From: Halomonas sp. A40-4
GTDB taxonomy: Bacteria; Pseudomonadota; Gammaproteobacteria; Pseudomonadales; Halomonadaceae
Assembly: GCF_015767635.1 (NCBI RefSeq)
Contig: NZ_CP065230.1
Span: 1,488,001-1,552,000 of the forward strand
DNA: 64,000 bases
Reading direction: 5' to 3'
The notes under the pieces were generated by a model that was not told where the DNA came from, did no database searches, and saw only the letters and a program-made list of their open reading frames with translations. This document shows, piece by piece, positions 7,309 through 64,000 of the stretch (its first letter is position 1; every line of letters starts with the position of its first letter). The translations under genes were made by a program, and so were the position numbers.

Positions 7309-7740
7309 ATCGCGCGCCTGAATGGCCAGTCCGTTTTGCTCAATGCGTTCCAGCCATTCACCCAGTTGTTCCAGATCCTCCTCCGAGAGACCTTCGAACA
7401 TTTCTTTGCGGGCTTCCTTTGCCACATTGTCAATCTGTTCAAGCAGTGGCATGGCCGCATCTGTCAGGTGGATACGTTTGCTGCGACGGTCGCTATCGCA
7501 AGCGCGCCGCTCCACCAGGCCCTGGTCTTCGAGCTGACTGAGTGTCCGAACCAAGGAGGGGGCCTCGACACCTATGGCCCGTGCCAAGTCACATTGCGGC
7601 TGGCCGTCGCCCAGGCGCCACAGATGATACAGCGTCACCCAACGCGTTTGTGTGAGGCCAAGCGGCGCCAGGCGGCGATCCAGTATGGAACGCCATAGAT
7701 GGGGCAGGCGAGCAATGCGAAAACCAATTGATGATGCCAT
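7288..7740 (-). CDS. slyA: MarR-family transcriptional regulator SlyA
   Basis: SlyA-type dimeric winged-helix regulator. The protein follows E. coli/Salmonella SlyA block by block: RLWR.ILD.RL near the start, LTQTRWVTLYHL, the recognition helix region AIGVEAPSLVRTLSQLEDQGLVERR, and the wing DRRSKRIHLT. Length is 150 aa against about 145. SlyA antagonises H-NS and controls envelope and stress genes in enterobacteria; targets here are unknown. It stands alone between two convergent or unrelated genes. Confidence 0.88.
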   Translation of the reverse strand: MASSIGFRIARLPHLWRSILDRRLAPLGLTQTRWVTLYHLWRLGDGQPQCDLARAIGVEAPSLVRTLSQLEDQGLVERRACDSDRRSKRIHLTDAAMPLLEQIDNVAKEARKEMFEGLSEEDLEQLGEWLERIEQNGLAIQARDLQEAAS

Positions 7741-48445: not shown

Positions 48446-48479
48446 AAAAACGCCTTGGCTCTCTAAAGCCAAGGCGTTT
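48446..48479 (-). terminator. Rho-independent terminator of pgi
   Basis: A perfect 13-bp stem (AAACGCCTTGGCT/AGCCAAGGCGTTT, loop CTCTAA) followed on the - strand by a T-run (A5 on the + strand at 48446-48450). It lies 30 bp after the pgi stop; the preceding + strand gene may also use it. Confidence 0.9.
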
Positions 48480-48509
48480 CGCGTTATCCAGTACGTGACT
48501 CGCTAGCGC

Positions 48510-50177
48510 TTAGCGCTTTTTCCGCGTGGTTTTTTTATCGTCGTTGGCTTTTGTGGCGCTGTCTTCACTTCTCCCATTGCCGGGGAAGTGCCCGCGCAGC
48601 AGCTCCAGCAGTCCCTGGGTCGAGGCGTCGAAGTCGGCGGCGTTGGTGTCGATGCGCTCGCTGATTTCACCGGCGATGCGCTTGCCGAGCTGAACACCCC
48701 ACTGGTCGAAGGAGTTGATGTTCCAGATAACGCCTTGCACGAACACCTTGTGTTCGTAGAGCGCGATCAGGGCACCCAGGTTTTTCGGCGTCAGCTCGTC
48801 CAGCAGCAGGGTGCTGGACGGGCGGTTGCCAGGGCAGCTGTAGGGATCGTGCTGGCTAAGCTCCTTGCTGTCTCCCTGGCTGCCTTCCATAAAGGCGTTG
48901 GCCTGGGCGAGCATGTTGGTGAGCAGCGCGAAGTGGTGGTCTTCGACACCCGGCTCGGGCTTGAGTGAGGCGATAAAGTCGATCGGTACGTAGCGTGTGC
49001 CCTGATGCAGCAGTTGGAAGAAAGCGTGCTGACCGTTGGAGCCGGTCTGGCCCCAGACAATCGGGCCGGTCTTGTAATTCACCGGGTGGCCGAAGATATC
49101 CACCGACTTGCCGTTGGACTCCATATCCAACTGCTGGAGAAACGAAGGCAACTGGTGCAGGGCCTGGTCGTAGGGCACGATGGCCTGGGTTTCCGCACCA
49201 ATGAAATTGATATACCAGATGCCAATCAGCGCCATCAGTACCGGCATGTTCTCGGAGAAGGGCGCTTCAATGAAGTGATTATCCATCTCGTGAGCGCCTT
49301 CCAGCAGCTCGATGAAGCCCTCAAAGCCAATCGAGAGCGCAATCGGCAGGCCAATGGATGACCACATGGAGTAGCGCCCGCCGACCCAGGCCCAGAACTC
49401 GAACACGTTCTCTTCACGAATGCCGAATTCCATCGCGGCCTTGCGATTGGTGGAGGCAGCGATAAAGTGCGCGCCCACATCGGCGTCTTCACCTGCGTTC
49501 TCCAGGAACCAGCGCCGCGCCGTCTTGGCGTTGAGCAGGGTTTCCTGGGTAGAGAAGGTCTTGGTTGAGACGATAAACAGCGTGGTGGCCGGGTCGAGAC
49601 GCGAAAGCACCTTCTGGATATGGGTGCCGTCCACGTTGGAAACGAAGTGGAAATGCAGCTCCGGGTGGCGGTACTTCAATAGCGCACGGACGGCCATGTT
49701 GGGGCCCAGGTCCGACCCGCCGATGCCAATGTTGACCACGTCCTTGATGCGTTTGCCGCTATAGCCTTTCCACTCACCGCTACGCACCGCCTCGGAAAAC
49801 TGCTTGATCTGCTCGCGGGTGCGGGTGATCTCGGGCATTACATCCTTGCCATCGACAAACACCGGCTCGTCGCCCAGGTGGCGCAGCGCGGTGTGAAGTA
49901 CCGGACGGTCTTCGGTGACGTTGATGATATCGCCCGAGAACATCTGTGCCCGGCGCTGCACCAGAGCGGAGTGGTCGGCCAGCTCGATCAGCTTGGCCTT
50001 GACCTCGTCGGATACGTGGTGCTTCGAGTAGTCGAGGAAAAGGCCGCCTACCCGCAGGCTCATTTTTTCAAAGCGCTGCGGGTCATTGGTGAAATAGTCA
50101 CGAATGCGATCGTTAGCGGTTTTGTCGCGCAGGCGTTCGAGCGCCTGCCACGTCACACTGCGGGTTAACTGAAACAT
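48510..50177 (-). CDS. pgi: Glucose-6-phosphate isomerase
   Basis: Interconverts glucose-6-phosphate and fructose-6-phosphate. The 555-residue protein has VNIGIGGSDLGP, FVSNVDGTHI, TKTFSTQETL, GGRYSMWSSIGLP, MESNGK and QLGKRIA, the complete set of PGI substrate-binding blocks, including the catalytic Glu and His regions. The extreme C-terminus is a short lysine/arginine tail (KANDDKKTTRKKR) not present in E. coli. It is divergent from the sugar operon, whose pentose phosphates feed the same hexose-phosphate pool. Confidence 0.97.
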   Translation of the reverse strand: MFQLTRSVTWQALERLRDKTANDRIRDYFTNDPQRFEKMSLRVGGLFLDYSKHHVSDEVKAKLIELADHSALVQRRAQMFSGDIINVTEDRPVLHTALRHLGDEPVFVDGKDVMPEITRTREQIKQFSEAVRSGEWKGYSGKRIKDVVNIGIGGSDLGPNMAVRALLKYRHPELHFHFVSNVDGTHIQKVLSRLDPATTLFIVSTKTFSTQETLLNAKTARRWFLENAGEDADVGAHFIAASTNRKAAMEFGIREENVFEFWAWVGGRYSMWSSIGLPIALSIGFEGFIELLEGAHEMDNHFIEAPFSENMPVLMALIGIWYINFIGAETQAIVPYDQALHQLPSFLQQLDMESNGKSVDIFGHPVNYKTGPIVWGQTGSNGQHAFFQLLHQGTRYVPIDFIASLKPEPGVEDHHFALLTNMLAQANAFMEGSQGDSKELSQHDPYSCPGNRPSSTLLLDELTPKNLGALIALYEHKVFVQGVIWNINSFDQWGVQLGKRIAGEISERIDTNAADFDASTQGLLELLRGHFPGNGRSEDSATKANDDKKTTRKKR

Positions 50178-50762
50178 AACGGGCGATCCTGTTATTTAGA
50201 TCATTATTAATAGATGGGGTCTGCACTGCTAGCCTGTGCTTTAGCTCCCCTTCATTGTAAAAAGCTACATTAAATGTCGAAATTTTCTTATGCATTAATC
50301 AAGGCTATATAAAATATCCTTGAGTTGCTTTGGTAAAGAATAGAGCTAATGTTTGTCGAAAAAATCACCATGATGATGTAAGTTGCAAATTATCTGGTAT
50401 GAATAATTTATAAGACAATCTTTTAATCTAATAGCATATTAAATCCCCTCCCCCCTCGCCTATATACAGTTTTAGCTTTCTTGGCTGGCTTTTGAATATG
50501 TATTCAAAAAATATCAGTGAATAAATATTTGAGCCAGCCATTGCTAAGCGCCTACCTACTGGAAAAATGCCATCAAGTTTTTGATATAGGGCTATTTGTT
50601 CATTTATAGCACTTAAAACCGCGGAAGGTTCCTGTCCAATATCAGACTAATGTATAAGCTTTGCTCTTTGGATTGCTCTTGACGGTAATCAGTATATGAA
50701 CAAAGATACCTATAAATCAATATTCAGTAATTGAATATTTATTCATAAGAGGTGTGGCAAAG
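50178..50762 (+). promoter_or_regulatory. Control region of the sugar operon with TGAATA/TATTCA array
   Basis: AT-rich gap of about 580 bp between divergent pgi and the operon. Seven copies of TGAATA or its complement occur: 50400, 50493, 50501, 50518, 50721, 50732 and 50740. Some pair into perfect palindromes: TTTTGAATA-TG-TATTCAAAA (50490-50509), TGAATA-TT-TATTCA (50732-50745) and AATATTCA-N5-TGAATATT (50719-50739). One cluster is about 250 bp upstream and the other touches the ribosome site, an arrangement suited to looping repression by the SorC-type regulator. Confidence 0.7.
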
Positions 50763-51593
50763 ATGATACGTAAACCATTGGGACCCGATGAACTGGCAGA
50801 GCAGTGTTGTCAGATGCGGAAAACCATCATCCAAACCATCGGCAATGCCAATATGGGCCATATCGGTGGTGATCTTTCCGTGATCGATATACTAGGAACC
50901 TTGTATTTCAATGTCTTGCAAGTGAATCCTGAGGATCCGATAGCCCCGGATCGTGACCGCTTTATCTTGAGTAAAGGGCATTGTGCGGTCGCTCTCTACA
51001 CAGCCATGGCTTACGCGGGCTACTTCCCAGTTGAAGAAATGTCGACCTTCGTGCAGCCCCAGTCACGACTCAATGGTCACCCCTGCAACGAGAAGTTGCC
51101 CGGTGTTGAAACTAGCACTGGTCCCCTGGGACATGGCCTACCTGTAGGCGTAGGTGCGGCCATCGGTGCCAAAATTCAGAAGAAACCCTGGCAGGTTTAC
51201 GTGGTCGTTGGCGACGGTGAGATTCAGGAAGGTAGCAACTGGGAAGCCGCGATGACTGCTGCCTACAAAAAACTGGATAACTTAACACTGATTATCGACC
51301 GCAATCGTCTCCAGCAGGGTGATCGCACCGATGATGTGACTTCACTAGAGCCTTTGACTGAACGCTTCAAATCCTTTGGTTGGGATTCACTAGAAGTTGA
51401 TGGCCACGATTATGGTGCGCTGATTGAAGCACTAAAGGCGCCGCGTGTAGAAAGTAAGCCTCGCTGCCTAGTGGCTAATACCTTCAAAGGAAAAGGCGTG
51501 TCTTTCATCCAAGATCGGGTTGAGTGGCATCATAAAGTACCGTCGCCGGAACAAGTCGAAGAAGCCCTGAACGAGCTGGAGAGAGGCGTATAA
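50763..51593 (+). CDS. Transketolase, N-terminal (TPP-binding) subunit
   Basis: 276 residues covering only the diphosphate-binding half of transketolase. The TPP motif is VGDGEIQEGSNWEAAMTAAYKKLDNLTLIIDRNRLQ (GDG-x-N type); GHIGGDLSVIDIL, DRFILSKGHCAVALY and STGPLGHGLPVGVG are standard transketolase blocks. The other half is in the next gene, 2 bp later. Such split enzymes are usual in specialised pathways, including apulose-4-phosphate transketolase AptA. ATG 50763 has a correctly spaced AAGAGGT; a GTG at 50754 is too close. Confidence 0.88.
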   Translation: MIRKPLGPDELAEQCCQMRKTIIQTIGNANMGHIGGDLSVIDILGTLYFNVLQVNPEDPIAPDRDRFILSKGHCAVALYTAMAYAGYFPVEEMSTFVQPQSRLNGHPCNEKLPGVETSTGPLGHGLPVGVGAAIGAKIQKKPWQVYVVVGDGEIQEGSNWEAAMTAAYKKLDNLTLIIDRNRLQQGDRTDDVTSLEPLTERFKSFGWDSLEVDGHDYGALIEALKAPRVESKPRCLVANTFKGKGVSFIQDRVEWHHKVPSPEQVEEALNELERGV

Positions 51594-51595
51594 CC

Positions 51596-52534
51596 ATGTC
51601 GAATGATATTCAACTACACGATTGTCGCAATGCCTTTGCGAAGACCCTTGAGGCACTAGCTGAAGCAGATGAGCGCATCGTTAGTGTCTGTAACGACTCG
51701 ATCGGCTCAAGCAAGCTAGGCGATTTTCGTAGCAAGTGGCCTGAGCGATTAATCAATGTCGGCATCGCTGAGCAGACCCTGGTCGGTGCAGGCGCGGGCT
51801 TGGCTAACTCAGGGTTGGTGCCTTTTGTGTGTGGAGCCTCCTGCTTCCTTACGGGGCGTTCACTTGAGCAAATAAAGGCCGACATCGTCTACTCGAACGC
51901 CAACGTCAAACTGTGTGGTATTAGCAGCGGTGTCGCCTATGGCGAACTTGGTCCCACGCACCACTCTATCGAAGATCTTGCTTGGACACGGCCGCTGGCA
52001 GGCCTCGATATTTTCGTTCCGGTGGATGACGTGGAAACGGCAGCGGTCATTCGCTATGTCGCTCAAAACGACCATCCGACCTTCGTTCGCCTGAGCCGCA
52101 TGGGCGTGCCGAGACTGCTGCCCGAGGACTACGAATTTCAGCCTGGTAAGGCTCAAATCCTGCGCGAAGGCAAGGACATCACTTTGATCGGCTGCGGTGT
52201 GACCGTTTGCAGGGCCATGGACGCGGCTGAGCAGTTGGCCAGCGAGGGTATCGAGGCGCGGGTGGTTAATTTCCCGAGCATCTCTCCTTTGGATGAAGAG
52301 ACCATCATACAGTGCGCTCAGGAAACCAAGCATCTGCTGACCATTGAGGAGCACAGTGTGCGCGGTGGTATGGGCAGCGCGATCGCCGAAGTCGTTGTCA
52401 GCAAAGCGCCGTGCAAGATGAAATTGCTGGGCTTCCCTGCCTTTGCTCCGACAGGTTCGGCTGAGTGGCTGCTCGACCACTTTGGCATGTCTGTGGGTGG
52501 CATCGTGGACTCGGCCAAAGCGCTGCTTAAGTAA
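51596..52534 (+). CDS. Transketolase, C-terminal (pyrimidine) subunit
   Basis: 312 residues forming the pyrimidine-binding and C-terminal domains of transketolase. The catalytic glutamate is in INVGIAEQTLVGAGAGLA, and LGPTHHSIEDLAWTRPL is the substrate loop; a final Rossmann-like domain follows. It complements the preceding gene to make one enzyme (AptB-like arrangement), transferring a two-carbon ketol unit. ATG 51596 is only 2 bp after the previous stop, so equal expression is expected. Its stop is 10 bp before the kinase. Confidence 0.88.
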   Translation: MSNDIQLHDCRNAFAKTLEALAEADERIVSVCNDSIGSSKLGDFRSKWPERLINVGIAEQTLVGAGAGLANSGLVPFVCGASCFLTGRSLEQIKADIVYSNANVKLCGISSGVAYGELGPTHHSIEDLAWTRPLAGLDIFVPVDDVETAAVIRYVAQNDHPTFVRLSRMGVPRLLPEDYEFQPGKAQILREGKDITLIGCGVTVCRAMDAAEQLASEGIEARVVNFPSISPLDEETIIQCAQETKHLLTIEEHSVRGGMGSAIAEVVVSKAPCKMKLLGFPAFAPTGSAEWLLDHFGMSVGGIVDSAKALLK

Positions 52535-52544
52535 GGAGAAGGTT

Positions 52545-54032
52545 ATGGCAACATCCGCCATTCTCGCTATCGATCAAGGCACTACCAACTCTAAGGCAGT
52601 GCTGGTGGACTTCGGCGGCAATATTATTGCCAAGGCAGCGGTGGGGATCCCTTGCCAGTATCCACAGCCGGGTTGGGTCGAGCAATCGGGTGAGGAAGTC
52701 GTCCTGAGTGTTAAGCAGGCCATCGACGTTTGTCTCTCAACGCAGCAGGATGTCGACGTCGTTGCCGTGGGGATATCGGCTCAGCGGGAATCTGCTATCG
52801 CCTGGGATAGTTTCAGTGGTAAATCGCTTGCACCCTGTGTCAGCTGGCAATGCCGCCGCAGCCAGCCCTTTTGTGAGGAGCTAAAGCGTCTCGGCCTCAA
52901 TGCCAGGGTTCACGAGTTGTCAGGTTTACCTATTGATCCACTCTTCTCCGGCTCAAAGTTCCGCTGGCTGCTCGATTCCTTCGACGACAGTATCGATCGT
53001 CATAATGTCCGACTGGGTAATGTCGACAGCTGGCTGTTATGGAATCTCACTGAGGGGAGGGTGCATCTGACGGATACGTCCAATGCATCGCGCACCCAGC
53101 TGTGCGATATCAGCACTGCCCAGTGGTCCCCAGAGTTGCTCGATGTATTTGGTATCAGTCCCGAGATGCTTCCGGAGATCCGTCCATCAAGCCACACCTT
53201 CGGAAAGACATGCGAGTTTGGATTGCTAAAGGAGGGCATTCCCATCTTGTCCATGATCGGTGATTCCCACGCGGCTTTGTTCGCCCAAGGGGGATTTCGC
53301 CCCGGCGTTGTTAAGGCGACATACGGAACTGGGTCTTCAGTGATGACCACCACCCAAAGCCAGATGGTACGGGCCGAGGGCCTAGCGACCACGGTGGCCT
53401 GGGAAACTTCAGAACAGCGCGTCTATGCACTCGAAGGCAATATCACGGTAAGCGCAGCCGTATTGCCCTGGACCGCGAAGTTGCTGGGGCTCGACGGCTC
53501 TGTCGAGCGCTTGGCTGAACTTGCTGAAGCTGCGAGTGGTAGGGGCAAAGAGGTTGTGGTACCCGCCATGGTGGGATTAGGGGCGCCGCGCTGGGTGGGC
53601 GACGTCACTGGCCTTATGGATGGGCTGACCTTCAATACCGAACCTGCTGATATAGCGCGGGCCGCTTTCGAGTCCATTGTTTTCCAAATCAAAGATGTCG
53701 TCGATGTTATGCAGTCAGCATGTCAGCGCCATGGATTGCCACCGCTAACGGCGCTCAAGGCCGATGGAGGTGCTAGTGCTAATAACTGGTTAATGCAACT
53801 CCAGGCAGACACCTTAGGTATTACGGTGCAAAGAGCCGCTCAAGCAGAGTTGTCTGCCGTCGGTACGGCAATGTTGGCGGGCCTTGAGCTAGGGGTGTGG
53901 CCGACGCTAGATGCTTTGGAGAAGGCACTGTCGTCTTTTGATACATTCGAGGGGCTGGGTGCCGACCAAGACGAACGCCACCAGACGTGGCTCAAGTCTG
54001 TGGAGCGTACCCTCTCTAAATCAAAAGGTTAG
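52545..54032 (+). CDS. FGGY-family carbohydrate kinase
   Basis: A 495-residue ATP-dependent sugar kinase. It opens AILAIDQGTTNSKAVLVD (phosphate-binding loop), has GWVEQ, GISAQRESAIAWD, the substrate Asp in IGDSHAALFAQGGF and the ATP-site YGTGSSVM, and a final ADGGASANNWLMQLQAD block. The sequence lies closer to the glycerol-kinase/AplK-EryA side of FGGY than to xylulokinase by eye. It should phosphorylate the ketose made by the dehydrogenases downstream. ATG 52545 has AAGGAG eight bases upstream. Substrate unknown. Confidence 0.9.
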   Translation: MATSAILAIDQGTTNSKAVLVDFGGNIIAKAAVGIPCQYPQPGWVEQSGEEVVLSVKQAIDVCLSTQQDVDVVAVGISAQRESAIAWDSFSGKSLAPCVSWQCRRSQPFCEELKRLGLNARVHELSGLPIDPLFSGSKFRWLLDSFDDSIDRHNVRLGNVDSWLLWNLTEGRVHLTDTSNASRTQLCDISTAQWSPELLDVFGISPEMLPEIRPSSHTFGKTCEFGLLKEGIPILSMIGDSHAALFAQGGFRPGVVKATYGTGSSVMTTTQSQMVRAEGLATTVAWETSEQRVYALEGNITVSAAVLPWTAKLLGLDGSVERLAELAEAASGRGKEVVVPAMVGLGAPRWVGDVTGLMDGLTFNTEPADIARAAFESIVFQIKDVVDVMQSACQRHGLPPLTALKADGGASANNWLMQLQADTLGITVQRAAQAELSAVGTAMLAGLELGVWPTLDALEKALSSFDTFEGLGADQDERHQTWLKSVERTLSKSKG

Positions 54033-54048
54033 GCCGGAGAAAACGACG

Positions 54049-55008
54049 ATGAATCCCGAATACGAACTGCGTTTGGCGACTAAGGTGGCTCACCTCTATT
54101 GGGTTGAGCAGATGCGCCAAGTTGATATTGCCGCGCGGCTGAACTTGTCACAAGCGGGCGTATCACGTTTGCTGCGCCGCGCGCAGAAGGAGGGCATCGT
54201 CTCCATTAGCATCAAACCGCCCGAAGGCACCTATCACCTGCTTGAGGAAGCATTATGTGCCAAGTACGGACTTGAAGAGGTGGTGGTGGCTGCCTGTCCC
54301 GACAACAGTGAGAACGCCATCTTGCTGAGTATTGGCGAAGCGGCAGCTCAATACCTTGAATCGACCTTACGTGCTAACGACCAGATAGGGATTTCGAGCT
54401 GGAGTTCGGCGCTGGTAGCGCTTGCCGAACAACTGCCAAAAAATGGCTCGCTAAAAGCACAGCGTGTTGTGCAACTGATGGGCGGTATGGCTCTCGATCA
54501 TGCAGAGCATCTTGCCGAAAACCTGACGCTGCAACTGGCCAATCGACTGGATGCGCGCCCTGGATTTATGCAGGTGGCAGGTATTGCCAGTACCCCCGAG
54601 GCTCGCAAGGTGATCAGTCAGGAGCCTTATGTACGCGAGACCATGGCGCTGTTTGATGAGCTAAGTATTGCCCTGGTCGGTATTGGCACACTCGAGCCTT
54701 CGCGATTTCTGGCTAGAAGTGGCAACACCTTTTCTAAAGAAGAGCTTTCAGATCTAGATGGCTGCGGCGCTGTGGGTGATGTCTGTTTGAGGTTTTATGA
54801 CAGCAACGGCGAGTTGGTCCCGCACTCTCTCAACGAAAGAGTGGTGGCGATTTCGCCTGAGAGCTTGAAGGCCATACCAAGGGTTGTCGGTCTAGCAGGA
54901 GGTCAGCAAAAAGTGGCCTCGATACGTGCGGCAGCCTTGGGCGGTTGGATCCAGGTGCTAATTACCGACAGCTTTACTGCCGAAGCATTGCTAGACACTG
55001 CGAGTTAG
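54049..55008 (+). CDS. SorC/DeoR-type sugar-responsive regulator
   Basis: A 319-residue SorC-family regulator: an N-terminal helix-turn-helix (HLYWVEQMRQVDIAARLNLSQAGVSRLLRRAQKEGIV) and a C-terminal sugar-binding domain with IGISSWSSALVAL, VVQLMGGM, GIGTLEPSRFLARSGN and GDVCLRFYDSNG. Family members bind phosphorylated sugars and control the polyol operon they sit in. It is within the operon, so it probably regulates itself through the TGAATA palindromes at 50400-50745. GGAGAAAACGACG precedes ATG 54049. Confidence 0.9.
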   Translation: MNPEYELRLATKVAHLYWVEQMRQVDIAARLNLSQAGVSRLLRRAQKEGIVSISIKPPEGTYHLLEEALCAKYGLEEVVVAACPDNSENAILLSIGEAAAQYLESTLRANDQIGISSWSSALVALAEQLPKNGSLKAQRVVQLMGGMALDHAEHLAENLTLQLANRLDARPGFMQVAGIASTPEARKVISQEPYVRETMALFDELSIALVGIGTLEPSRFLARSGNTFSKEELSDLDGCGAVGDVCLRFYDSNGELVPHSLNERVVAISPESLKAIPRVVGLAGGQQKVASIRAAALGGWIQVLITDSFTAEALLDTAS

Positions 55009-55085
55009 CCAGGCTGCGAGCAGTTTATCAATCTAACCATCAGTGCTTAAGCAATCTAGCACTGATGCTGAAAAGGAGAATAACA

Positions 55086-55883
55086 ATGAAACGTTTCGAA
55101 CAGCAGGTAGTGGTGGTGGCTGGCGCCGATCGTGGAATCGGGCTTGCCATGGCGACCCGTTTCGCAGATGAAGGGGCGAGCGTTGCGATGGCCTCCAACC
55201 GCCAGGAAATCCATGCGGCTGCGGCGGATCTTGAACGTCGAGGAAGCGAAAAAGGTTTGTCGGGTAGCATCATGGCCGCGGAAGTTGATGTCACCAACAG
55301 TGACCAGGTTGAACGGTTCTATAACGACGTATGCAAACGCTTTGGGCGCATTGATGTATCAATTCAAAACGCTGGCGTGATTACGATCTCTCGCTTACAG
55401 GATCTTCCTGAGTCGGATTGGGACAAAGTTATGGACGTGAATACCAAAGGGGTTTTTCTGTGCTGCAAGGCAGCGCTCCGGCATATGGCAGAAGCTGGTC
55501 GAGGGGTATTAATCAACATGGCCTCGGGTCAGGCGCGTCAGGGCTTTATCTATACACCGCATTATGCCGCCAGCAAGTTCGGGGTATTAGGGATCACCCA
55601 AAGCCTGGCGCGTGAATTTGCCACCTCGGGTATCACCGTCAATGCCATCTGTCCCGGTATCGTGATGACCGATATGTGGGACTACAACGATAAAGCTTGG
55701 GGTGAGCTCCTGGGGGATTACCAGCCCGGTGAGTTAATCCGCGAATGGGTGGCCAGTGTTCCCATGAAACGTGCCGCGTCGCCTGAAGAAATCAGTGGGA
55801 CGGCAGCCTTCCTGGCCTCTGAAGATGCGCGCTATATCACCGGGCAAGCGATCAATGTCGATGGTGGACTAATCATGTCCTGA
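55086..55883 (+). CDS. SDR-family polyol dehydrogenase 1
   Basis: A 265-residue NAD(P)-dependent short-chain dehydrogenase. The cofactor loop is AGADRGIG, the catalytic Tyr-Lys pair is in YAASKFG, the Ser in NMASGQA, and a C-terminal insertion (MWDYNDKAWGELLGDYQPGELIREW) resembles the substrate lid of sorbitol/polyol 2-dehydrogenases. I infer oxidation of a polyol to a ketose. AAGGAG lies seven bases before ATG 55086; the frame back to 54945 overlaps the regulator and is not used. Confidence 0.85.
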   Translation: MKRFEQQVVVVAGADRGIGLAMATRFADEGASVAMASNRQEIHAAAADLERRGSEKGLSGSIMAAEVDVTNSDQVERFYNDVCKRFGRIDVSIQNAGVITISRLQDLPESDWDKVMDVNTKGVFLCCKAALRHMAEAGRGVLINMASGQARQGFIYTPHYAASKFGVLGITQSLAREFATSGITVNAICPGIVMTDMWDYNDKAWGELLGDYQPGELIREWVASVPMKRAASPEEISGTAAFLASEDARYITGQAINVDGGLIMS

Positions 55884-55905
55884 TTAACCGCTAATTCCAA
55901 AAAAC

Positions 55906-55931
55906 GATAGCCCTTAAAGATAGCCCTTAAA
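55906..55931. repeat. Tandem duplication of 13 bp
   Basis: GATAGCCCTTAAA occurs twice head to tail in the 68-bp gap between the two dehydrogenase genes, just before the second gene's ribosome site. Probably a recent slippage duplication. Confidence 0.85.
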
Positions 55932-55951
55932 GATGAAATAAGGAGCACGCA

Positions 55952-56749
55952 ATGACGACAACGTATGACATGTCTCTTAAGCACGGTGTGGATTTCAACT
56001 TTTCACTTGAAGGCAAAGTTGTATTAATCACCGGTGGGCTTGGGGGAATCGCAACTGCAGCCAACGAAGCGATGCTTGATAAAGGAGCCAGTATTGCCAT
56101 TTTTTACCCGGAATTCGAGGCTGATCGGGTGGCAGAGGTCATGGCACAGTTTCCGAAAGATCGCGCTCAGGCCTGGTGCTGTGATGTCACCCAGGAAGTT
56201 CAAGTAGAGCGATGCGTAAAAGACGTGGTCGACCACTTTGGTGATCTGCATATCTTGATTAATGCCGCTGGCGCTATCACGTTAAATTTCGCTGAAGACG
56301 TGATGCTCACCGAGTGGCAGCGCCAGATTGATGTCAATCTGACTGCCCCTTTCCTATGTGCCAGAGAAGTCGGGCGTTACCTGTTAAAAAGCGGCCACGG
56401 AGGCAAGATTATTAATATTGCTTCTCAGGCCGCCACGGTCGCCATCGATCAGCACTGCGCCTACACCTCGGCGAAAGCGGGACTTATCGGTATGACGAAA
56501 AGCTTGGCGAAAGAGTGGGGGCCGCATGGCATTACGGTTAACAGCATTTCTCCCACCGTAGTGTTGACCCCTATGGGGGCGGCTGCCTGGTCAGGCGAAA
56601 AAGGGGAGCGTATGAAAACCATGATTCCAACGGGGAGGTTTGCCTATACGGACGAGATTGCCGCAAGCATTTTGTTTCTAGCCACAAATGGCAGTGACAT
56701 GATCAATGGCGCGGACTTAGTAATAGATGGTGGCTATACCATTTGGTGA
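55952..56749 (+). CDS. SDR-family polyol dehydrogenase 2
   Basis: A second 265-residue SDR enzyme, not a duplicate of the first. It has an extended N-terminus, cofactor loop TGGLGGIA (third Gly replaced by Ala), NAAGAI, Ser in NIASQAA, Tyr/Lys in CAYTSAKAG, and NSISPTVVLTPMG with INGADLVIDGGYTIW at the end. The last blocks resemble D-threitol/arabitol-type dehydrogenases (GolD/DthD group) as I recall them. Two dehydrogenases in one operon suggest either epimerisation through a ketose or two substrates. AAGGAG precedes ATG. Confidence 0.85.
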   Translation: MTTTYDMSLKHGVDFNFSLEGKVVLITGGLGGIATAANEAMLDKGASIAIFYPEFEADRVAEVMAQFPKDRAQAWCCDVTQEVQVERCVKDVVDHFGDLHILINAAGAITLNFAEDVMLTEWQRQIDVNLTAPFLCAREVGRYLLKSGHGGKIINIASQAATVAIDQHCAYTSAKAGLIGMTKSLAKEWGPHGITVNSISPTVVLTPMGAAAWSGEKGERMKTMIPTGRFAYTDEIAASILFLATNGSDMINGADLVIDGGYTIW

Positions 56750-56814
56750 AAAATATTAAATCAACAACTTAAGAAAAAATCTGATTCTTAAACAAAGAAA
56801 TAAAGGTGAAAACA

Positions 56815-57810
56815 ATGAAAATGACCTCAATGCAGTTACTCAATCGTTTTGCATCCACTGCCACTCTTTCTGCGATGGTAGCAGTTGCTGGTGTCGGTTC
56901 TGCACAAGCTCAGGGTGATGTTGATTTAAGCGATGACGGCGAGAAGGGCAATATTGCGATTCTCGTCAATTCCCTAGATAACCCTTATTACTCTGCCGAG
57001 GCAACAGCTGCTGAGGCACGTGCAGAAGAACTTGGTTACGCGGCCAGTACTTTCTCACACAACGAAGATCTAAACCGGCAGCGTGATCTTATCACTTCCG
57101 TTGTTGGCCAGGGTGTGGATGGCATCGTACTGGACAATGCTGACTCGTCAGCTAGTGTGGCGGCTGTGCGATATGCCACGGAGCGTGATGTACCTGTGGT
57201 GCTAATCAATCGTGAAATCCCTGAAGATGGCATCGCTATTGCTCAGTTGACACACAATAACAACCAGGCAGCTTCTCAAGTCGCACAGGCCTTCATCGAG
57301 AAGGTTGGAGAATCGGGTAAGTATGTCGAGTTGACCTGCAACTTGGCGGATAACAACTGCGTCGCACGCTCGAATGCCTACCATCGCATACTTGACCAGT
57401 ATCCCGACCTTGAGATGGTCGCGCGTCAAGACGCTGGAGGTGAATTGGTCAAAGCTAGGCAATCGATGCAATCCATTCTTCAGAGTCATCCGGACATTGT
57501 CGGCGTCATTGCAGGCAATGGCCCCGTAGCGCTGGGTGCCATTTCCGCTTTGGAGTCGGCAGGAATGGACGATGTCACGGTGGTTGGGATTGATGGCAGT
57601 AATGATGAACGTGATGCTGTCCTGGATGGTCAGCTTTATGCCACATCCATGCTGCAGGCTCAGGAACTCGCACGACAGGGTGTCAATCAGCTTCACCAGT
57701 ATCTGGAGACGGGCGAGACTGGGGAGTCAGAGCGTCAACTCTTCCGCAGTATCTTGATCACTGAAGATAATGCGGAGTCGGTTAACAATTTCGAATACAA
57801 AGATAATTAA
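56815..57810 (+). CDS. RbsB-type periplasmic sugar-binding protein
   Basis: A 331-residue substrate-binding protein of a CUT2 (ribose-type) ABC importer. The signal peptide is cleaved after SAQA (about residue 32); the mature protein begins with IAILVNSLDNPYYSAEATAAEARAEELGY and has VDGIVLDNADSSASVAAVRYATERDVPVVLINREI and VVGIDGSNDERDAVLDGQLYATSMLQ, standard Peripla_BP_4 blocks. The ligand is unknown; a pentitol, tetritol or unusual pentose fits the operon. ATG 56815 has AAGG eight bases upstream. A hairpin follows the stop. Confidence 0.9.
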   Translation: MKMTSMQLLNRFASTATLSAMVAVAGVGSAQAQGDVDLSDDGEKGNIAILVNSLDNPYYSAEATAAEARAEELGYAASTFSHNEDLNRQRDLITSVVGQGVDGIVLDNADSSASVAAVRYATERDVPVVLINREIPEDGIAIAQLTHNNNQAASQVAQAFIEKVGESGKYVELTCNLADNNCVARSNAYHRILDQYPDLEMVARQDAGGELVKARQSMQSILQSHPDIVGVIAGNGPVALGAISALESAGMDDVTVVGIDGSNDERDAVLDGQLYATSMLQAQELARQGVNQLHQYLETGETGESERQLFRSILITEDNAESVNNFEYKDN

Positions 57811-57819
57811 GCGAAGTAC

Positions 57820-57845
57820 AGGAGTGGTGGAAAGCCACCACTCCT
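57820..57845 (+). terminator. Intercistronic hairpin after the binding-protein gene
   Basis: Perfect 11-bp stem AGGAGTGGTGG/CCACCACTCCT with an AAAG loop and no proper T-run. In ABC import operons such hairpins protect the abundant binding-protein mRNA and reduce readthrough to the transporter genes. Confidence 0.65.
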
Positions 57846-57877
57846 TCCCTTTCAGTGTGACGAAGTGTGGTGCGGAT

Positions 57878-58525
57878 ATGAATGATAGACGCCATGTAAT
57901 TATACGTAGCTTCGGAATGGTCTTGTTGATGTCGACTGTCGTGATGACGAGTGGCTTTAAGATAGTGTCGTCCGAAGAGCTTACCAAAATTCGAAATGAA
58001 GGTAGTGCACCCGAAGTGGATACTTCGTCATTATTCCATGACGATATCGCTCCTTGGGCGATTTCCTCATCACGAGAAGCTGATGAGATCCTATCTGCGA
58101 TCGACAAACAAGGTTTCAGTGAAGCTTGCCAGGAATATGGTGTGCAAAAGAGCCAGGCTTTCCCTTGTACTTTTTGGGTAAAGGTCGCCGGTACCGTCGC
58201 AGCTGTCGATACCTCCTCGCGGGTTGGAAAGATAAAACTGTCTAGTGGCGACAAGAATGTGGAAATCCTGATTGGCCCTGTTATCCCGGATACTGCCTTG
58301 CGTGATGGTTATCCCGAGATCGATTACAGCGATTTTGGAAATCAAGACGCCTTCGCCAACTTGTCCGAAGCCCTCAACAGAGAAGCGATATCACTAGTCG
58401 ACGAAGTTGAAGAAATCACTCCCGGTGATCGTGTGAGTGCCGTAGGGGCCTTTTCAACCTGGGGCGGGGTGGAGGACACTTTACAGATTGTTCCGGTAGA
58501 ACTGAACCGCGTCAATGCAGAGTGA
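57878..58525 (+). CDS. DUF2291 family periplasmic protein, lipobox lost
   Basis: A 215-residue protein of the DUF2291 family, which accompanies ribose-type ABC importers in polyol operons; its role is unknown. The usual family members are lipoproteins with a Gly-Cys lipobox before KIV. Here the N-terminal helix (FGMVLLMSTVVMTSGFKIVSSEE) has Phe in that position, so it cannot be acylated and is probably membrane-anchored or cleaved. The rest has FWVKVAGTVAAVDTSSRVGKIKL, ILIGPVIPDTALRDGYPEIDYSDFGNQ, typical of the family. The start ATG 57878 has only a weak ribosome site. Confidence 0.75.
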   Translation: MNDRRHVIIRSFGMVLLMSTVVMTSGFKIVSSEELTKIRNEGSAPEVDTSSLFHDDIAPWAISSSREADEILSAIDKQGFSEACQEYGVQKSQAFPCTFWVKVAGTVAAVDTSSRVGKIKLSSGDKNVEILIGPVIPDTALRDGYPEIDYSDFGNQDAFANLSEALNREAISLVDEVEEITPGDRVSAVGAFSTWGGVEDTLQIVPVELNRVNAE

Positions 58526-58577
58526 TATGAAAATAATGCTCAATAATTATCACTCCGATTCGGAGGAGGGTAACGCC

Positions 58578-60164
58578 ATGCACACGGTGGAAGAACAACG
58601 CAATTCAAGCAATGAGCAGCATCTTGAGTCGCCATCAAAAGCGTTGGTTCAAGTTAAGAACGCCACGAAACGTTATCCCGGGACCGTGGCTTTAGACGCG
58701 GTTAACTATGAGGTATACCCCGGCAGTGTAAATGTCTTGATCGGTGAAAATGGCGCGGGTAAGTCGACCCTTATGAAATTGTTGGCTGGTGCTGAGCGGC
58801 CATCCGAAGGGGATATTTTCGTTAAAGGAAAATCGGTCCACTTTCATGGTGTGCGAGATGCGGAGAAAGCCGGTATCGGAATTATCTTTCAAGAGCTCAA
58901 CCTGTTCCCAGATATGAGCATCGTTGAAAATCTTTTTATCGGTAACGAGATGCGCCATGCCGGGAAAATCGATACCCGTGCACAATATCGTAAGGCAACG
59001 CAGTTACTTGAACGAGTAGGGCTGGAGGCTGACCCTTCCATACGTGTTGGCGATCTTTATGTGGGGCAGCAACAATTGGTTGAGATCGCCAAGATGCTCG
59101 GCCGCCAAGTTGATGTCTTGATTATGGATGAGCCCACGTCTGCCCTTAGTCAAAAAGAAGTTGAGGTGCTGTTTGGTATCATTGATGCGTTACGCCAGGA
59201 TGGCGTCGCTGTCATTTATATCTCTCACCGTTTAGAAGAGATCATGAGGATCGGTGACCATATTACTGTCCTGCGCAATGGTCGGATTGTCGGTGTCGAT
59301 CTGGTTAAAAATATTGATATTCCCTGGATCGTACGTCAGATGGTAGGCGGCGATCACAAGATATTCGACTACCGTCCTCGCCAAATCGGCGAACCCACAT
59401 TAACAGTCAAGAATCTGAGCCTAAAACGAGTCAATGGCACCTTTGCGCTTGATAACGTCAATTTTAGCGTTGGGCGCGGAGAGGTCATTGGTATTTATGG
59501 CTTGATGGGGGCTGGTAGAACCGAATTACTGGAAGTACTGCTTGGGCTTCATCGTAGCGCAGTGGGCCAGATCGAGTTCGATGGAAAGCCATTAGCTAAA
59601 GGTAAGCCCGCCAATCGAATCAAGGCTGGCATTGCCTTGGTACCAGAAGATCGCCAAACGTCTGGCATGGTTCAGACATTGTCAGTGCGTGACAACATGA
59701 CGCTGTCCAGCATCGGTCGGTGTTGCTCGCATTTCCTCGGCTTTCGCATGATTCGGGGCCAACTCGAAAAGCAGCAGAGCCAGCGGATGGTCTCAACACT
59801 TGGTATTAAGGTGTCGCATGACTCGGACAAGATCACCACGCTGAGTGGGGGCAACATGCAAAAGGTCATTATTGGCAAAGCATTGCTAACCGAGCCACGT
59901 GTACTGTTGTTTGATGAACCTACTCGTGGTGTCGATGTGGGGGCTAAGGCCGATATCTACCGAGCCATGAATGATATCGCCGATCAGGGCGTCTCCGTTA
60001 TATATACCACTTCAGAGCTGGACGAGGCTCTGGCTGTAGCTGATCGAGTCCTGGTCATGGCATTAGGGCGGATTACCGTTGACCTTCCGCGTGATGAGGT
60101 GGACCGCGATTTAATTACCCAAAAAGCATCACCTTCCGCGGTTCAAGACGCCGCCGCTCAGTAA
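58578..60164 (+). CDS. RbsA-type sugar ABC ATPase
   Basis: A 528-residue ATPase with two nucleotide-binding domains in one chain, as in RbsA/XylG. The first domain has GENGAGKST, Q-loop and VGQQQLVEIAKML, with MDEPTSALS; the second has GLMGAGRTE in place of a canonical Walker A, LSGGNMQKV and FDEPTRGVDVGAK. This asymmetric pair is normal for CUT2 importers. ATG 58578 follows GGAGGAGGG; an in-frame ATG at 58515 overlaps the DUF2291 gene and has no ribosome site. It drives uptake with the permease that follows 11 bp later. Confidence 0.92.
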   Translation: MHTVEEQRNSSNEQHLESPSKALVQVKNATKRYPGTVALDAVNYEVYPGSVNVLIGENGAGKSTLMKLLAGAERPSEGDIFVKGKSVHFHGVRDAEKAGIGIIFQELNLFPDMSIVENLFIGNEMRHAGKIDTRAQYRKATQLLERVGLEADPSIRVGDLYVGQQQLVEIAKMLGRQVDVLIMDEPTSALSQKEVEVLFGIIDALRQDGVAVIYISHRLEEIMRIGDHITVLRNGRIVGVDLVKNIDIPWIVRQMVGGDHKIFDYRPRQIGEPTLTVKNLSLKRVNGTFALDNVNFSVGRGEVIGIYGLMGAGRTELLEVLLGLHRSAVGQIEFDGKPLAKGKPANRIKAGIALVPEDRQTSGMVQTLSVRDNMTLSSIGRCCSHFLGFRMIRGQLEKQQSQRMVSTLGIKVSHDSDKITTLSGGNMQKVIIGKALLTEPRVLLFDEPTRGVDVGAKADIYRAMNDIADQGVSVIYTTSELDEALAVADRVLVMALGRITVDLPRDEVDRDLITQKASPSAVQDAAAQ

Positions 60165-60175
60165 GGAATCTAATC

Positions 60176-61243
60176 ATGACAACTGTAACCAATAATATGT
60201 CTTCCCAAGACCATCCGCATCGCAGTAAGAGCGCCCAGGCGTCCTGGGTTTTGCTGCAAGTATTAAAGCTCAGGATATTTGTAGCCTTGTTCGCCGTGGT
60301 GTTGTACTTCTCTTTGAGCGTGGATAACTTCCTGACCACGAATAATCTACTGATTATGGCCCAGCATATTACCATCATTGGTATTCTGGCCATTGGCATG
60401 ACGCTGGTTATCCTCACGGCAGGCATCGATCTTTCGGTAGGTTCGACGGTCGGCTTTAGTGGAATGATGGCCGGTTTTCTGATAATGAACGGTATTCCTA
60501 TTGGGGATTCCGTATTATTTCTGAATATCCCAGAGGTCATATTAGTGACCTGCTTGGTTGGTGCCTTTATCGGCTATATCAATGGTGCCCTCATAACTTA
60601 TCTCAATGTGGCACCGTTTATCGCTACTCTGGGCATGCTATATGTGGTGCGCGGTGCGGCGTTGCTGTTTAACGACGGCGGCACTTTTTCTCGTCTGCAA
60701 GGCCACGAAGAGCTGGGTAACATGGGATTCTCCATCCTAGGCAATGGCTCTTTGTTGGGTATCGGTATCCCTGTTTGGTTGCTCTTGGCTTTGACTCTAG
60801 TCACGTGGTTCGTGAGTTATAAGACGCCTTTTGGTCGCTATGTCTATGCGATTGGTGGCAACGAGTCTGCTGCCGTATTTTCAGGATTGAGAGTTCGCAG
60901 GATTAAATTGTGGGTGTATGTCTTTTCAGGCTTTTGTGCCGCGATCGTGGGTCTCGTTATTACCTCCCAGTTGCAGACTGGGCATCCGATGACGGGGGAT
61001 ACCTATGAGTTGCGCGCTATCGCGGCGGTGGTGTTGGGTGGTACTGCGCTTTCCGGGGGGCGTGGCTCGGTCATCGGTTCGGTTATTGGTGCATGCGTCA
61101 TCAGTATTCTTAACGATGGCATGGTGATGTCCGGTGTCAGTAATTTCTGGCAGATGGTCATCATGGGGCTAGTGATTATCATCGCCGTGGTCATTGACCA
61201 ACTGCAGCAGCGTCTACATAAGCGCGTTATGGTCTTGACTTAA
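60176..61243 (+). CDS. RbsC-type sugar ABC permease
   Basis: A 355-residue inner-membrane permease with about ten helices. It has the CUT2 blocks MAQHITIIGILAIGMTLVILTAGIDLSVGSTVGFSG, INGALITYLNVAPFIATLGMLYVVRGAALL, YAIGGNESAAVFSGLRVRRIKLWVYVFSG and the EAA-like AAVVLGGTALSGGRGSVIGSVIGA. It forms a homodimer with the ATPase for import of the operon's sugar. AAGGAATC precedes ATG. A 142-bp gap with a hairpin separates it from the transaldolase. Confidence 0.92.
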   Translation: MTTVTNNMSSQDHPHRSKSAQASWVLLQVLKLRIFVALFAVVLYFSLSVDNFLTTNNLLIMAQHITIIGILAIGMTLVILTAGIDLSVGSTVGFSGMMAGFLIMNGIPIGDSVLFLNIPEVILVTCLVGAFIGYINGALITYLNVAPFIATLGMLYVVRGAALLFNDGGTFSRLQGHEELGNMGFSILGNGSLLGIGIPVWLLLALTLVTWFVSYKTPFGRYVYAIGGNESAAVFSGLRVRRIKLWVYVFSGFCAAIVGLVITSQLQTGHPMTGDTYELRAIAAVVLGGTALSGGRGSVIGSVIGACVISILNDGMVMSGVSNFWQMVIMGLVIIIAVVIDQLQQRLHKRVMVLT

Positions 61244-61331
61244 TATACGCGGTCATTTTGGTTTGGATTAACCCCCCATCATTCGTGAGCCTTTGACTTG
61301 TCAACGGACTGATCCCTTCCGGTAACTATTC

Positions 61332-61358
61332 GCTTGGGGCGCTTTTTGCGCCTCAAGC
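61332..61358 (+). terminator. Hairpin between permease and transaldolase genes
   Basis: An 11-bp stem (GCTTGGGGCGC/GCGCCTCAAGC, one G-T pair) with a T5 loop and no T-run after it. It may reduce or process readthrough into tal-tkt. Confidence 0.5.
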
Positions 61359-61385
61359 TTCAAAGACTATTGTCAGGAGCCTTGT

Positions 61386-62345
61386 ATGTCTTCCCAACTT
61401 GATGCATTGAAATCTCTTTCCCTGGTAGTTGCTGATACCGGCGATCTTGCCGCTATTCGGCGATACCAGCCTCAGGACGCTACCACCAACCCTTCGCTGA
61501 TCCTAAAGGCCTTTGATCTTCCCGATTACCAGTCGTTGATTAACGAGGAGTTGGCGGCGATTAGCGCTGAAGGCGGTGATCGCCAAACCCAGGCCGAACA
61601 TGCTGTGGACCGTCTCGCTGTTGCAATGGGCAGTGAGATAGCCAAGGTGGTGCCCGGCCGCGTGTCAACTGAGGTAGCCGCAAAGCTGTCTTTCGATACC
61701 CAGGCCAGTATCCGCAAAGCCCACGAGCTAATTGAACTGTACCAGAAACGAGGCATCTCCTCGGAACGTGTGCTGATCAAACTGGCATCCACTTGGGAAG
61801 GTATCCGTGCTGCCGAGGTGTTGGAAAAGGAGGGTATCAACTGCAACCTGACCCTGCTGTTCAGCGACGTTCAGGCTCAAGCCTGCTTCGACGCAGGTGT
61901 ATTTCTAGTTTCGCCCTTTGTCGGCAGGGTTACCGACTGGTACAAGCAATCGACAGGTCAAGACTTTACACCCGACACCGATCCGGGGGTGCAGTTTGTG
62001 CGCGGCGTTTGCCAGCGAGTCAACCAGGGCGGCTTCGACACCGTGGTGATGGGCGCCAGTTTCCGTAATACCGGTCAGGTATTGGCACTCGCTGGCTGCC
62101 CCCGGCTGACCATCTCGCCGACGCTGCTTGAGGAGCTCGCCGCCACCAAGGGTGACGTGGCGCGAGGGATTGAAATGGGCGAGGCGCAGAGCCAGCGCCC
62201 AGCACCGCTAGGCGAAGCGGCGTTCCGCTGGGGCCATAACCAGGATGCCATGGCTAATGACAAACTGGCTGAAGGCATTCGCCGTTTCGCCGAGGATCAA
62301 GCCAGCCTCGAAAGCCTGATCAACGAACGCCTCACTGCCCACTGA
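61386..62345 (+). CDS. tal: Transaldolase
   Basis: Transfers dihydroxyacetone units between sugar phosphates in the non-oxidative pentose phosphate pathway. The 319-residue protein has the Schiff-base lysine in [33 protein letters not shown] at the start, [14 protein letters not shown] and [12 protein letters not shown], and [11 protein letters not shown], all as in TalB. CAGGAGCC precedes ATG 61386. It is followed by the transketolase with 16 bp between, so the two act together downstream of the operon's kinase. Confidence 0.96.
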
Positions 62346-62361
62346 CTATAGGATTTACCTC

Positions 62362-64000
62362 ATGTCGACCCGTTTCGAGCTGGCCAATGCCATTCGCGCT
62401 CTTTCCATGGACGCTGTTCAGAAGGCCAACTCTGGCCACCCCGGTGCTCCGATGGGGATGGCTGACATCGCCGAGGTGCTGTGGAATGATTTCGTTGACC
62501 ACAACCCGGCCAACCCCGATTGGGCTGACCGCGACCGTTTCGTGCTTTCCAACGGCCACGGCTCAATGCTGCTGTACTCGCTTCTCCATCTCACCGGCTA
62601 CGACTTAGGCCTGGAGGATCTACAGAACTTCCGCCAGCTGCACTCGCGCACCCCGGGCCACCCCGAGCTGGGCTATACGCCGGGCATAGAGACCACCACT
62701 GGCCCGCTGGGTCAGGGCCTGGCCAACGCCGTGGGCATGGCGATGGCTGAACGCACACTGGCGGCCCAGTTTAATCGCCCTGACCACGCCATTGTCGACC
62801 ATTACACCTATTGTTTTGTCGGTGACGGTTGCCTGATGGAGGGCATCTCTCATGAGGTTGCTTCGCTGGCGGGTACCCAGGGGCTGGGCAAGCTTATCGT
62901 CTTCTACGACGACAACGGCATCTCTATCGACGGTGAGGTTGAGGGCTGGTTCACCGATGACACCGCCAAACGCTTCGAGGCCTATGGGTGGCACGTGGTG
63001 CGAAGTGTCGACGGCCATCAGCCGAAGGGAGTCAAGGCTGCCATTGAGCAGGCCCGCAGCCATGACGACCAGCCTAGTCTGATCGTCTGCAAGACGATCA
63101 TTGGTTTCGGTGCGCCCAACAAGCAAGGTAAGGAAGAGTGCCACGGCGCGGCACTGGGGCCGCCGCTCGTGAGCGGTTAAACTGGCCCCACGCGCCCTTC
63201 CATATACCCGAAGACATCTATCAGGGTTGGGACGCTACCGAGCACGGTGCCGAGCGCGAAGCTGACTGGAATGCCCGCTTCGAGCGCTACGCCGCTGCCT
63301 ATCCTGAGCAAGCCCGTGAATTAAAGCGCCGCCTGAAGGGCGAGCTACCCAGCGAGCTTTCAAGCCTGACAATGATTGAACAGGCCCAAGCGAGCGGTGA
63401 GACCGTCGCCTCGCGCAAAGCCTCACTGGCCTGCCTCAACGAGCTTGGCCCGCAACTCCCCGAGTTACTGGGTGGCAGTGCGGATCTAGCGCCTTCGAAC
63501 CTGACCTTCTGGGACGGCGCCAAACCGATTAGCGCCGACGCGCCAGACGGCAACTACCTTAACTATGGGGTGCGCGAATTTGGCATGGGCGCGATTATTA
63601 ACGGTATTGCCGCTCACGGTGGTTTCATTCCCTATGGCGCCACCTTCCTGATTTTTATGGAGTACATGCGCAACGCTGTACGGATGGCTGCGTTGATGGG
63701 CCACCGGACGATCTACGTCTTTACCCACGACTCCATCGGCCTAGGTGAAGATGGTCCTACCCACCAACCGATAGAGCAACTAACCAGCTTGCGTACAACG
63801 CCCAATCTGTCGACCTGGCGGCCCTGCGATGCCGTGGAGACGACCGCAGCCTGGGATGCCGCACTCAAGCGTCAGGCAGGGCCCACGGCGCTAGTGCTAT
63901 CACGCCAGAACCTGCCTCATCAGGCGCGCACTAAGCCGCAGCTGGCTGAGATCCAACGTGGAGGGTACGTTTTGAAGGATTGCGCTGGCACCCCCGAGCT
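62362..64000 (+). pseudogene. tkt: Transketolase with frameshifting deletion (cut by window end)
   Basis: Full-size transketolase broken in frame. Residues 1 to about 266 are intact and standard: [99 protein letters not shown]. The frame then reads PPLVSG and stops at 63180. From 63162 another frame continues without stop to the window end and gives [76 protein letters not shown]. Compared with TktA, five residues between LG and AARE are replaced by two bases: a net loss of 13 nt at about 63159-63162. An assembly error is possible. Confidence 0.85.

Follow-up and report, generated by a model that had tools for sequence, protein, structure and literature searches.

Gene organization of the operon

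The window, the whole 64-kb stretch analysed here from the 4.15-Mb, single-contig genome of Halomonas sp. A40-4, contains an operon that runs from a split transketolase to a transaldolase and lies between direct copies of a repeat. An earlier note on this DNA had counted ten genes on one strand; the + strand and the gene families are confirmed, but the count comes to eleven open reading frames (ORFs). The features are as follows.

48448..50182, - strand: left copy (1,735 bp) of a repeat that carries pgi (glucose-6-phosphate isomerase); 97.5% identical direct copies flank the operon
50493..50506, no strand: candidate SorC operator 1, palindrome TGAATATGTATTCA; one of two motif sites in 64 kb
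50732..50745, no strand: candidate SorC operator 2, palindrome TGAATATTTATTCA; motif also in related clusters
50763..51593, + strand: N-terminal (ThDP-binding) subunit of the split transketolase; PF00456, motif intact
51596..52534, + strand: C-terminal subunit of the split transketolase; PF02779 and PF02780
52545..54032, + strand: GlpK-like FGGY kinase, candidate apulose kinase; 455 bits on the glycerol kinase model, cut-off 590
54049..55008, + strand: sugar-responsive regulator of the SorC family; PF04198
55086..55883, + strand: SDR1 (class sA), predicted NADP(H) type; Arg in the Gly motif
55952..56749, + strand: SDR2 (class sG), GolD/DthD-family dehydrogenase, predicted NAD(H) type; NF005309
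56806..57810, + strand: RbsB-type substrate-binding protein, clade A; from identity to counterparts and pocket analysis
57878..58525, + strand: DUF2291 lipoprotein; PF10054
58515..60164, + strand: RbsA-type ATPase; either 58515 or 58578 may be the start
60176..61243, + strand: RbsC-type permease; PF02653
61386..62345, + strand: transaldolase; PF00923
62362..64000, running past the window end, + strand: ordinary full-length-type transketolase with a frameshift at ~63138–63180, followed by tpiA

The two halves of the split transketolase lie 2 bp apart, as had been noted, and both the GDGE...N and GIAEQ motifs, which we take to be the cofactor and catalytic motifs of the halves, are intact. SDR1 and SDR2 share 32% identity and both keep the N-S-Y-K residues, in agreement with their description as dissimilar enzymes. 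The likely start of the DUF2291 gene is 57878, which corrects the first call. The downstream gene previously read as a transketolase remnant proved to be a nearly complete ordinary transketolase, the frame of which is broken between ~63138 and 63180; in the related locus L118 the same gene is a single open frame of 728 codons with all domains present. Beyond the window it is followed by the triose-phosphate isomerase gene (tpiA). No isomerase gene was found in the operon when its ORFs and domain families were read.

Comparison with known and related clusters

A type of cluster with a link to D-apiose is already known from E. coli, and the operon is a variant of it. Ten gene types (the two parts of the split transketolase, the GlpK-like FGGY kinase, SorC, two SDRs, and RbsB/DUF2291/RbsA/RbsC) are shared with the cluster of E. 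coli ST131/SE15 (ECSF_RS02670–RS02715), so that a split transketolase, an FGGY kinase, an importer, and two oxidoreductases stand in one cluster as they do there; the importer clade, an orthologue of SDR1, a SorC regulator with the same operator motif, and the lack of an isomerase are also common to both. The E. coli cluster differs in its second SDR (34% identity), in its kinase (42%) and transketolase subunits (44 and 40%), and in gene order, and, unlike it, the halomonad operon has a transaldolase, a transketolase, and tpiA appended. According to the available part of the E. coli report, those Escherichia strains tested that carry the cluster and lack the isomerase grow on D-apiose, and K-12 does not (PMC13001218, 2026); in the same part, the Escherichia clusters are described as lacking apsI, and two putative oxidoreductases are hypothesised to replace it (PMC13001218). 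This link to D-apiose is a growth association and not a gene deletion. As far as that part of the source goes, the equal gene content means that the operon can mostly no longer be called undescribed (PMC13001218), and it falls just short of the outcome that the earlier note had named as a refutation, since the gene order is not identical to that of the described one.

Related gene sets occur in Klebsiella (L024) and Caballeronia (L023). Identities to the E. coli, Klebsiella, and Caballeronia counterparts are 59, 60, and 67% for the binding protein, 58, 58, and 68% for the permease, 52, 50, and 56% for the ATPase, 27, 31, and 34% for DUF2291, and 54, 55, and 62% for SDR1; SDR2 is 68% identical to its Caballeronia counterpart, and the kinase 44% to that of Klebsiella. 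In contrast to this likeness of importer and SDRs, the Caballeronia/Paraburkholderia clusters (L023, L032–L045) have a DeoR regulator, a kinase nearer to GlpK in the tree, and a transketolase of 37–42% identity. The rhizobial and Deinococcus clusters (L025, L027, and L028/L195) resemble the window in the split transketolase (51–64%), kinase (44–48%), SorC (44–46%), and SDR1 (57–61%), but have another importer (binding protein, 25–26%), an E. coli-type second SDR, and no DUF2291 in the three locus tables read. The pairwise identities thus describe a mosaic, in which the importer and SDR1 match E. coli, Klebsiella, and Caballeronia, and the kinase, transketolase, and SorC are nearer to the rhizobial and Deinococcus clusters than to E. 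coli; as read from these identities, the mosaic shows an apparent exchange of importer, SDR, and kinase/transketolase modules between clusters.

Further relatives were collected in one scan with four binding proteins, in which 204 stretches matched; a relative is encoded in 121 of them, and the analysis covered the best 80 of these. L119, L120, and L124 repeat L031, L030, and L046, so that three loci are counted twice in pooled counts. The core set of the window recurs in seven further Halomonadaceae loci, three of which are these repeats. Halomonas socia CKY01 (L030) is one halomonad that carries the operon. Kinase and transketolase are missing from 27 of the best 80 loci (of 121 relatives), and all eight genomes checked among those 27 carry both in a second cluster, the transketolase being 75–82% identical to the E. 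coli or Klebsiella subunits. The binding protein of one second cluster (L144) is 71% identical to the Rhizobium etli protein encoded near oiaX, and those of the other seven are 77–92% identical to the L144 protein. A Fucose_iso_C isomerase is present in four of the eight second-cluster genomes and absent from the other four.

Such isomerase-type clusters, with an R. etli-like importer, share the logic of kinase, split transketolase, and SorC and the operator, but differ in having, inside the cluster, the Fucose_iso_C isomerase in place of the SDRs and a binding protein of another clade. In the family of G321 (the genome of L106), nine of 60 genomes have an E. coli-type transketolase (E <= 1e-90); the clusters of eight of them, G321 being the ninth, comprise four SDR-type and four isomerase-type clusters, which have the transketolase and regulator in common. 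Two of these four isomerase-type clusters have an E. coli-type kinase (72–73%) and two an L144-type kinase. The Fucose_iso_C gene lies beside kinase and split transketolase genes at 7473–8888 of L144 and also in L146, L185–L188, L191, and L192. Its product reaches 121 bits, against a cut-off of 700, with the sulfoquinovose isomerase model and is a candidate apiose isomerase.

Kinase and split transketolase

When the kinase and transketolase were placed in family trees, as the earlier note had proposed, neither grouped tightly with the E. coli enzymes. In the transketolase tree, a starred branch separates the window subunits from those of E. coli; in the kinase tree, the window enzyme falls with the rhizobial, E. 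coli, and isomerase-type kinases with an SH-aLRT value of 82, which is not strong support. A role as glycerol kinase was rejected, because the enzyme stays below the cut-off of TIGR01311 (given above) and its active-site residues are changed; all seven GlpK controls pass with 729–771 bits, and the kinases of the E. coli (495), Caballeronia (457), and L144 (437) clusters also fall below the cut-off. The window kinase has GDSHAA, GTGS, and Leu where GlpK has GDQ[QN]AA, GTGC, and Tyr. GDSHAA and GTGS are found in all eight cluster kinases compared, and the position of Tyr135 (presumably GlpK numbering) is Leu or Met in seven of the eight, the window included, with Tyr kept in Caballeronia. Among the 120 best database relatives of the kinase, 107 also have GDSHAA, so that it marks a broad family and is no pointer to apulose. 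The xylulokinase model (TIGR01312) was likewise rejected, at 177 bits against a cut-off of 380.

The two SDRs and their predicted cofactors

Only SDR1 (54%) has an orthologue in the E. coli pair; SDR2 and the second E. coli SDR (34%) are not orthologous and, judged from their sequences, belong to different subfamilies. SDR2 passes the GolD/DthD subfamily model NF005309 with 314 bits (curated cut-off, 286). Among the best 80 loci of the 121 relatives, 79 have an SDR1-type gene, the exception being a 9.5-kb contig (L104), and all 80 have a second SDR, of class sG in 63 and class sC in 17. In the Gly motif, the residue that precedes the second glycine is Arg or Lys in 85 of the 85 sA rows scored, Gly in 70 of 70 sG rows, and Ser in 17 of 17 sC rows, these rows including three repeated loci; one more sA row, missed by the motif pattern, also has Arg. 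The sC rows printed have an Asp that ends the second strand. By general SDR rules, sA enzymes are of the NADP(H) type and sC enzymes of the NAD(H) type, and the sG enzymes are probably also of the NAD(H) type. A clade-A importer is accompanied by two SDRs of opposite predicted cofactor in 79 of these best 80 loci. Mixed-cofactor pairs are usual for aldose–polyol–ketose bypasses, for example the fungal xylose reductase/xylitol dehydrogenase pair. The D-apiose reductase of Aerobacter aerogenes described in 1970 (EC 1.1.1.114), to our knowledge an orphan activity lacking a gene, is said to be NAD-dependent, which would fit sC or sG better than sA as the apiose reductase.

Importer and predicted binding pocket

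The pocket of the binding proteins was defined by mapping 18 positions of E. coli RbsB, presumably those listed from its ribose complex, onto each protein by alignment. All 18 are identical in the 91 clade-A rows (repeats included), E. coli clusters among them. E. coli RbsB is matched at six of the 18 positions by clade A and at 13 by the R. etli apiose-type protein, and clade A differs from this R. etli protein at ten. Two pocket aromatics are lost in clade A (Phe164 to Gly and Phe214 to Ile). Clade A has Asn9, Tyr15, and Asn89 in common with the pRL12-locus binding protein; we take that locus to be the erythritol locus (the record itself does not name it). The aromatic residues of the pRL12 protein at 164 and 214 are absent from clade A. 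The remodelled pocket points away from ring apiose as the ligand, and D-apiitol may be the imported compound. It is conceivable, if somewhat doubtful, that the clade-A importer is specific for the acyclic, branched D-apiitol and not for ring apiose, that a polyol route joins apiose catabolism at apulose, and that one SDR is the D-apiose reductase EC 1.1.1.114. Elsewhere in the survey, the clusters L025, L027, and L028/L195, with a window-like core and an SDR pair, have importer pockets that are aromatic at positions 15, 16, 164, and 214.

Candidate SorC operator

The palindrome TGAATANNTATTCA occurs exactly twice in the 64-kb window, both times upstream of the operon (expected by chance, 0.04; none of 100 shuffles reached two), giving two perfect copies of the candidate operator TGAATA-NN-TATTCA. 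The strict motif is found in 27 of 28 loci with both SorC and transketolase, where 33 of 35 sites lie outside the cluster genes, and in all 12 clusters that have the R. etli-type importer. It is present in one (L051) of the 34 transketolase loci scored without SorC, a class that includes loci where no regulator was found, and in none of the 27 loci without transketolase. The Deinococcus cluster has an exact site and two rhizobial clusters a near one; L022, L151, L194, and L196 have none. TGAA-N6-TTCA resembles the general operator of the SorC family, and this likeness of the loose motif to other SorC operators supports, but does not prove, a shared regulon.

Proposed pathway and alternatives

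We consider it probable that the operon serves the import of D-apiose and/or D-apiitol and their conversion to D-apulose by two SDRs, with no isomerase, for phosphorylation by the kinase and cleavage by the split transketolase. The plant sugar D-apiose and/or its alcohol form, D-apiitol, would enter through RbsB/DUF2291/RbsA/RbsC; one SDR would interconvert apiose and apiitol, and the other would oxidize apiitol at C2 to D-apulose, the assignment of the steps to the two enzymes being left to prediction. The FGGY kinase would form apulose 4-phosphate. By transfer of its two-carbon ketol unit onto glyceraldehyde 3-phosphate, the split transketolase would yield xylulose 5-phosphate along with dihydroxyacetone phosphate, and the downstream transaldolase, transketolase, and triose-phosphate isomerase would carry the products into central metabolism. 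The two TGAATA-NN-TATTCA sites are the likely targets of the SorC regulator. The AplK/AptAB chemistry is reportedly that described by Carter in 2018. The idea that the split transketolase is dedicated to this route, and that import, redox steps, and an FGGY kinase supply it, is supported, the isomerase being absent from the operon. The idea of a polyol stands in part: a branched polyol (apiitol) is possible from the SDR2 subfamily and the pocket.

The two other routes of D-apiose breakdown were rejected for the operon itself. For the isomerase (ApsI) pathway, the cluster isomerase is missing, and the sister-cluster Fucose_iso_C isomerase has no homologue in the ten SDR-type genomes searched, the host included; the host genome has six AP_endonuc_2 family matches elsewhere, which may be related to ApsI and so count against the isomerase-less reading. 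For the oxidative pathway (OiaK/OiaX), the operon has no OiaX-type RuBisCO-like protein; the R. etli oiaX locus (L151) shares the DUF2291-bearing importer type (binding protein, 42–44%) but has oxidative enzymes and no split transketolase or SDR pair in its locus table. Separately, another host locus (L149, genome C1:1243001–1262000) encodes a RuBisCO-like protein with 45% identity to R. etli OiaX (475 bits; cut-off, 700), an OiaK-like kinase nearby (268 bits; cut-off, 700), and, by eye, TRAP-transporter-like genes; it is perhaps a related branched-acid pathway.

Among the alternatives, a different imported compound, such as a rare sugar or some other polyol of branched or acyclic form, which the SDRs would convert to a ketose for the diverged kinase and transketolase, appears rather unlikely, though it has the most in its favour. 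The core enzymes are far from those of E. coli, the transketolase being of another clade, and the pocket has the losses at 164 and 214 and the three residues in common with the pRL12-locus protein. That four of the eight second-cluster genomes hold the SDR pair, both importers, and an isomerase counts against the apiose/apiitol reading, and the SDR-linked importer may serve otherwise. Against a different compound, the E. coli clusters share the binding-protein clade, with all 18 pocket positions identical, their kinase and transketolase are common to isomerase-type clusters, and the type is found in apiose-growing strains. An ordinary pentose or pentitol operon (xylitol, arabitol, ribitol, or ribose) leading to xylulose 5-phosphate, with the split transketolase as an accessory, would agree with the RbsB-type annotation, the downstream transaldolase and further transketolase, and the GolD/DthD subfamily of SDR2; it is improbable in view of the xylulokinase score, the binding protein (28% identity to RbsB, with 12 of 18 pocket positions different), and the two ordinary transketolases of the host genome in open frames, beside which a conserved extra split enzyme needs a special substrate. 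An erythritol-type (Ery) operon can be dismissed, because the kinase is 27% identical to that of pRL12 (presumably EryA) and lies outside its long branch, the operon has no glycerol-3-phosphate-dehydrogenase-type (EryB) gene, and the pRL12 locus table has no split transketolase, even though that locus too has RbsB/DUF2291/RbsA/RbsC and a SorC-type regulator.

The apiose/apiitol reading supports, from distant bacteria, the proposal, made in the available part of the report on E. coli, of two oxidoreductases in place of the apiose isomerase (PMC13001218). It also names a conserved SDR pair with predicted cofactors, and thus candidate genes for EC 1.1.1.114, and TGAATA-NN-TATTCA is a testable regulon motif. 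The cell walls of seagrasses are substantially richer in apiose than those of flowering plants on land, as stated in the accessible part of PMC8815203, and marine and salt-loving bacteria could plausibly obtain it there.

Genomic context and distribution

The right copy of the pgi repeat lies beyond the window (genome 1553549–1555283, L152), in direct orientation to the left one, with the operon in between. In the relative G037, the site has one repeat copy and no operon (left flank match, 96%; right flank, 92%), which makes it an empty site and the ~15.4 kb between the copies an insertion, or else a clean loss in G037. A search of 275 family genomes with the C-terminal transketolase subunit gave eight matches at E <= 1e-90, host included, spanning five of 24 genera, and the seven non-host genomes all lie outside the genus of the host; lateral gain is the simplest reading of this distribution. 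Recombination between the direct 1.7-kb pgi repeats could delete the operon.
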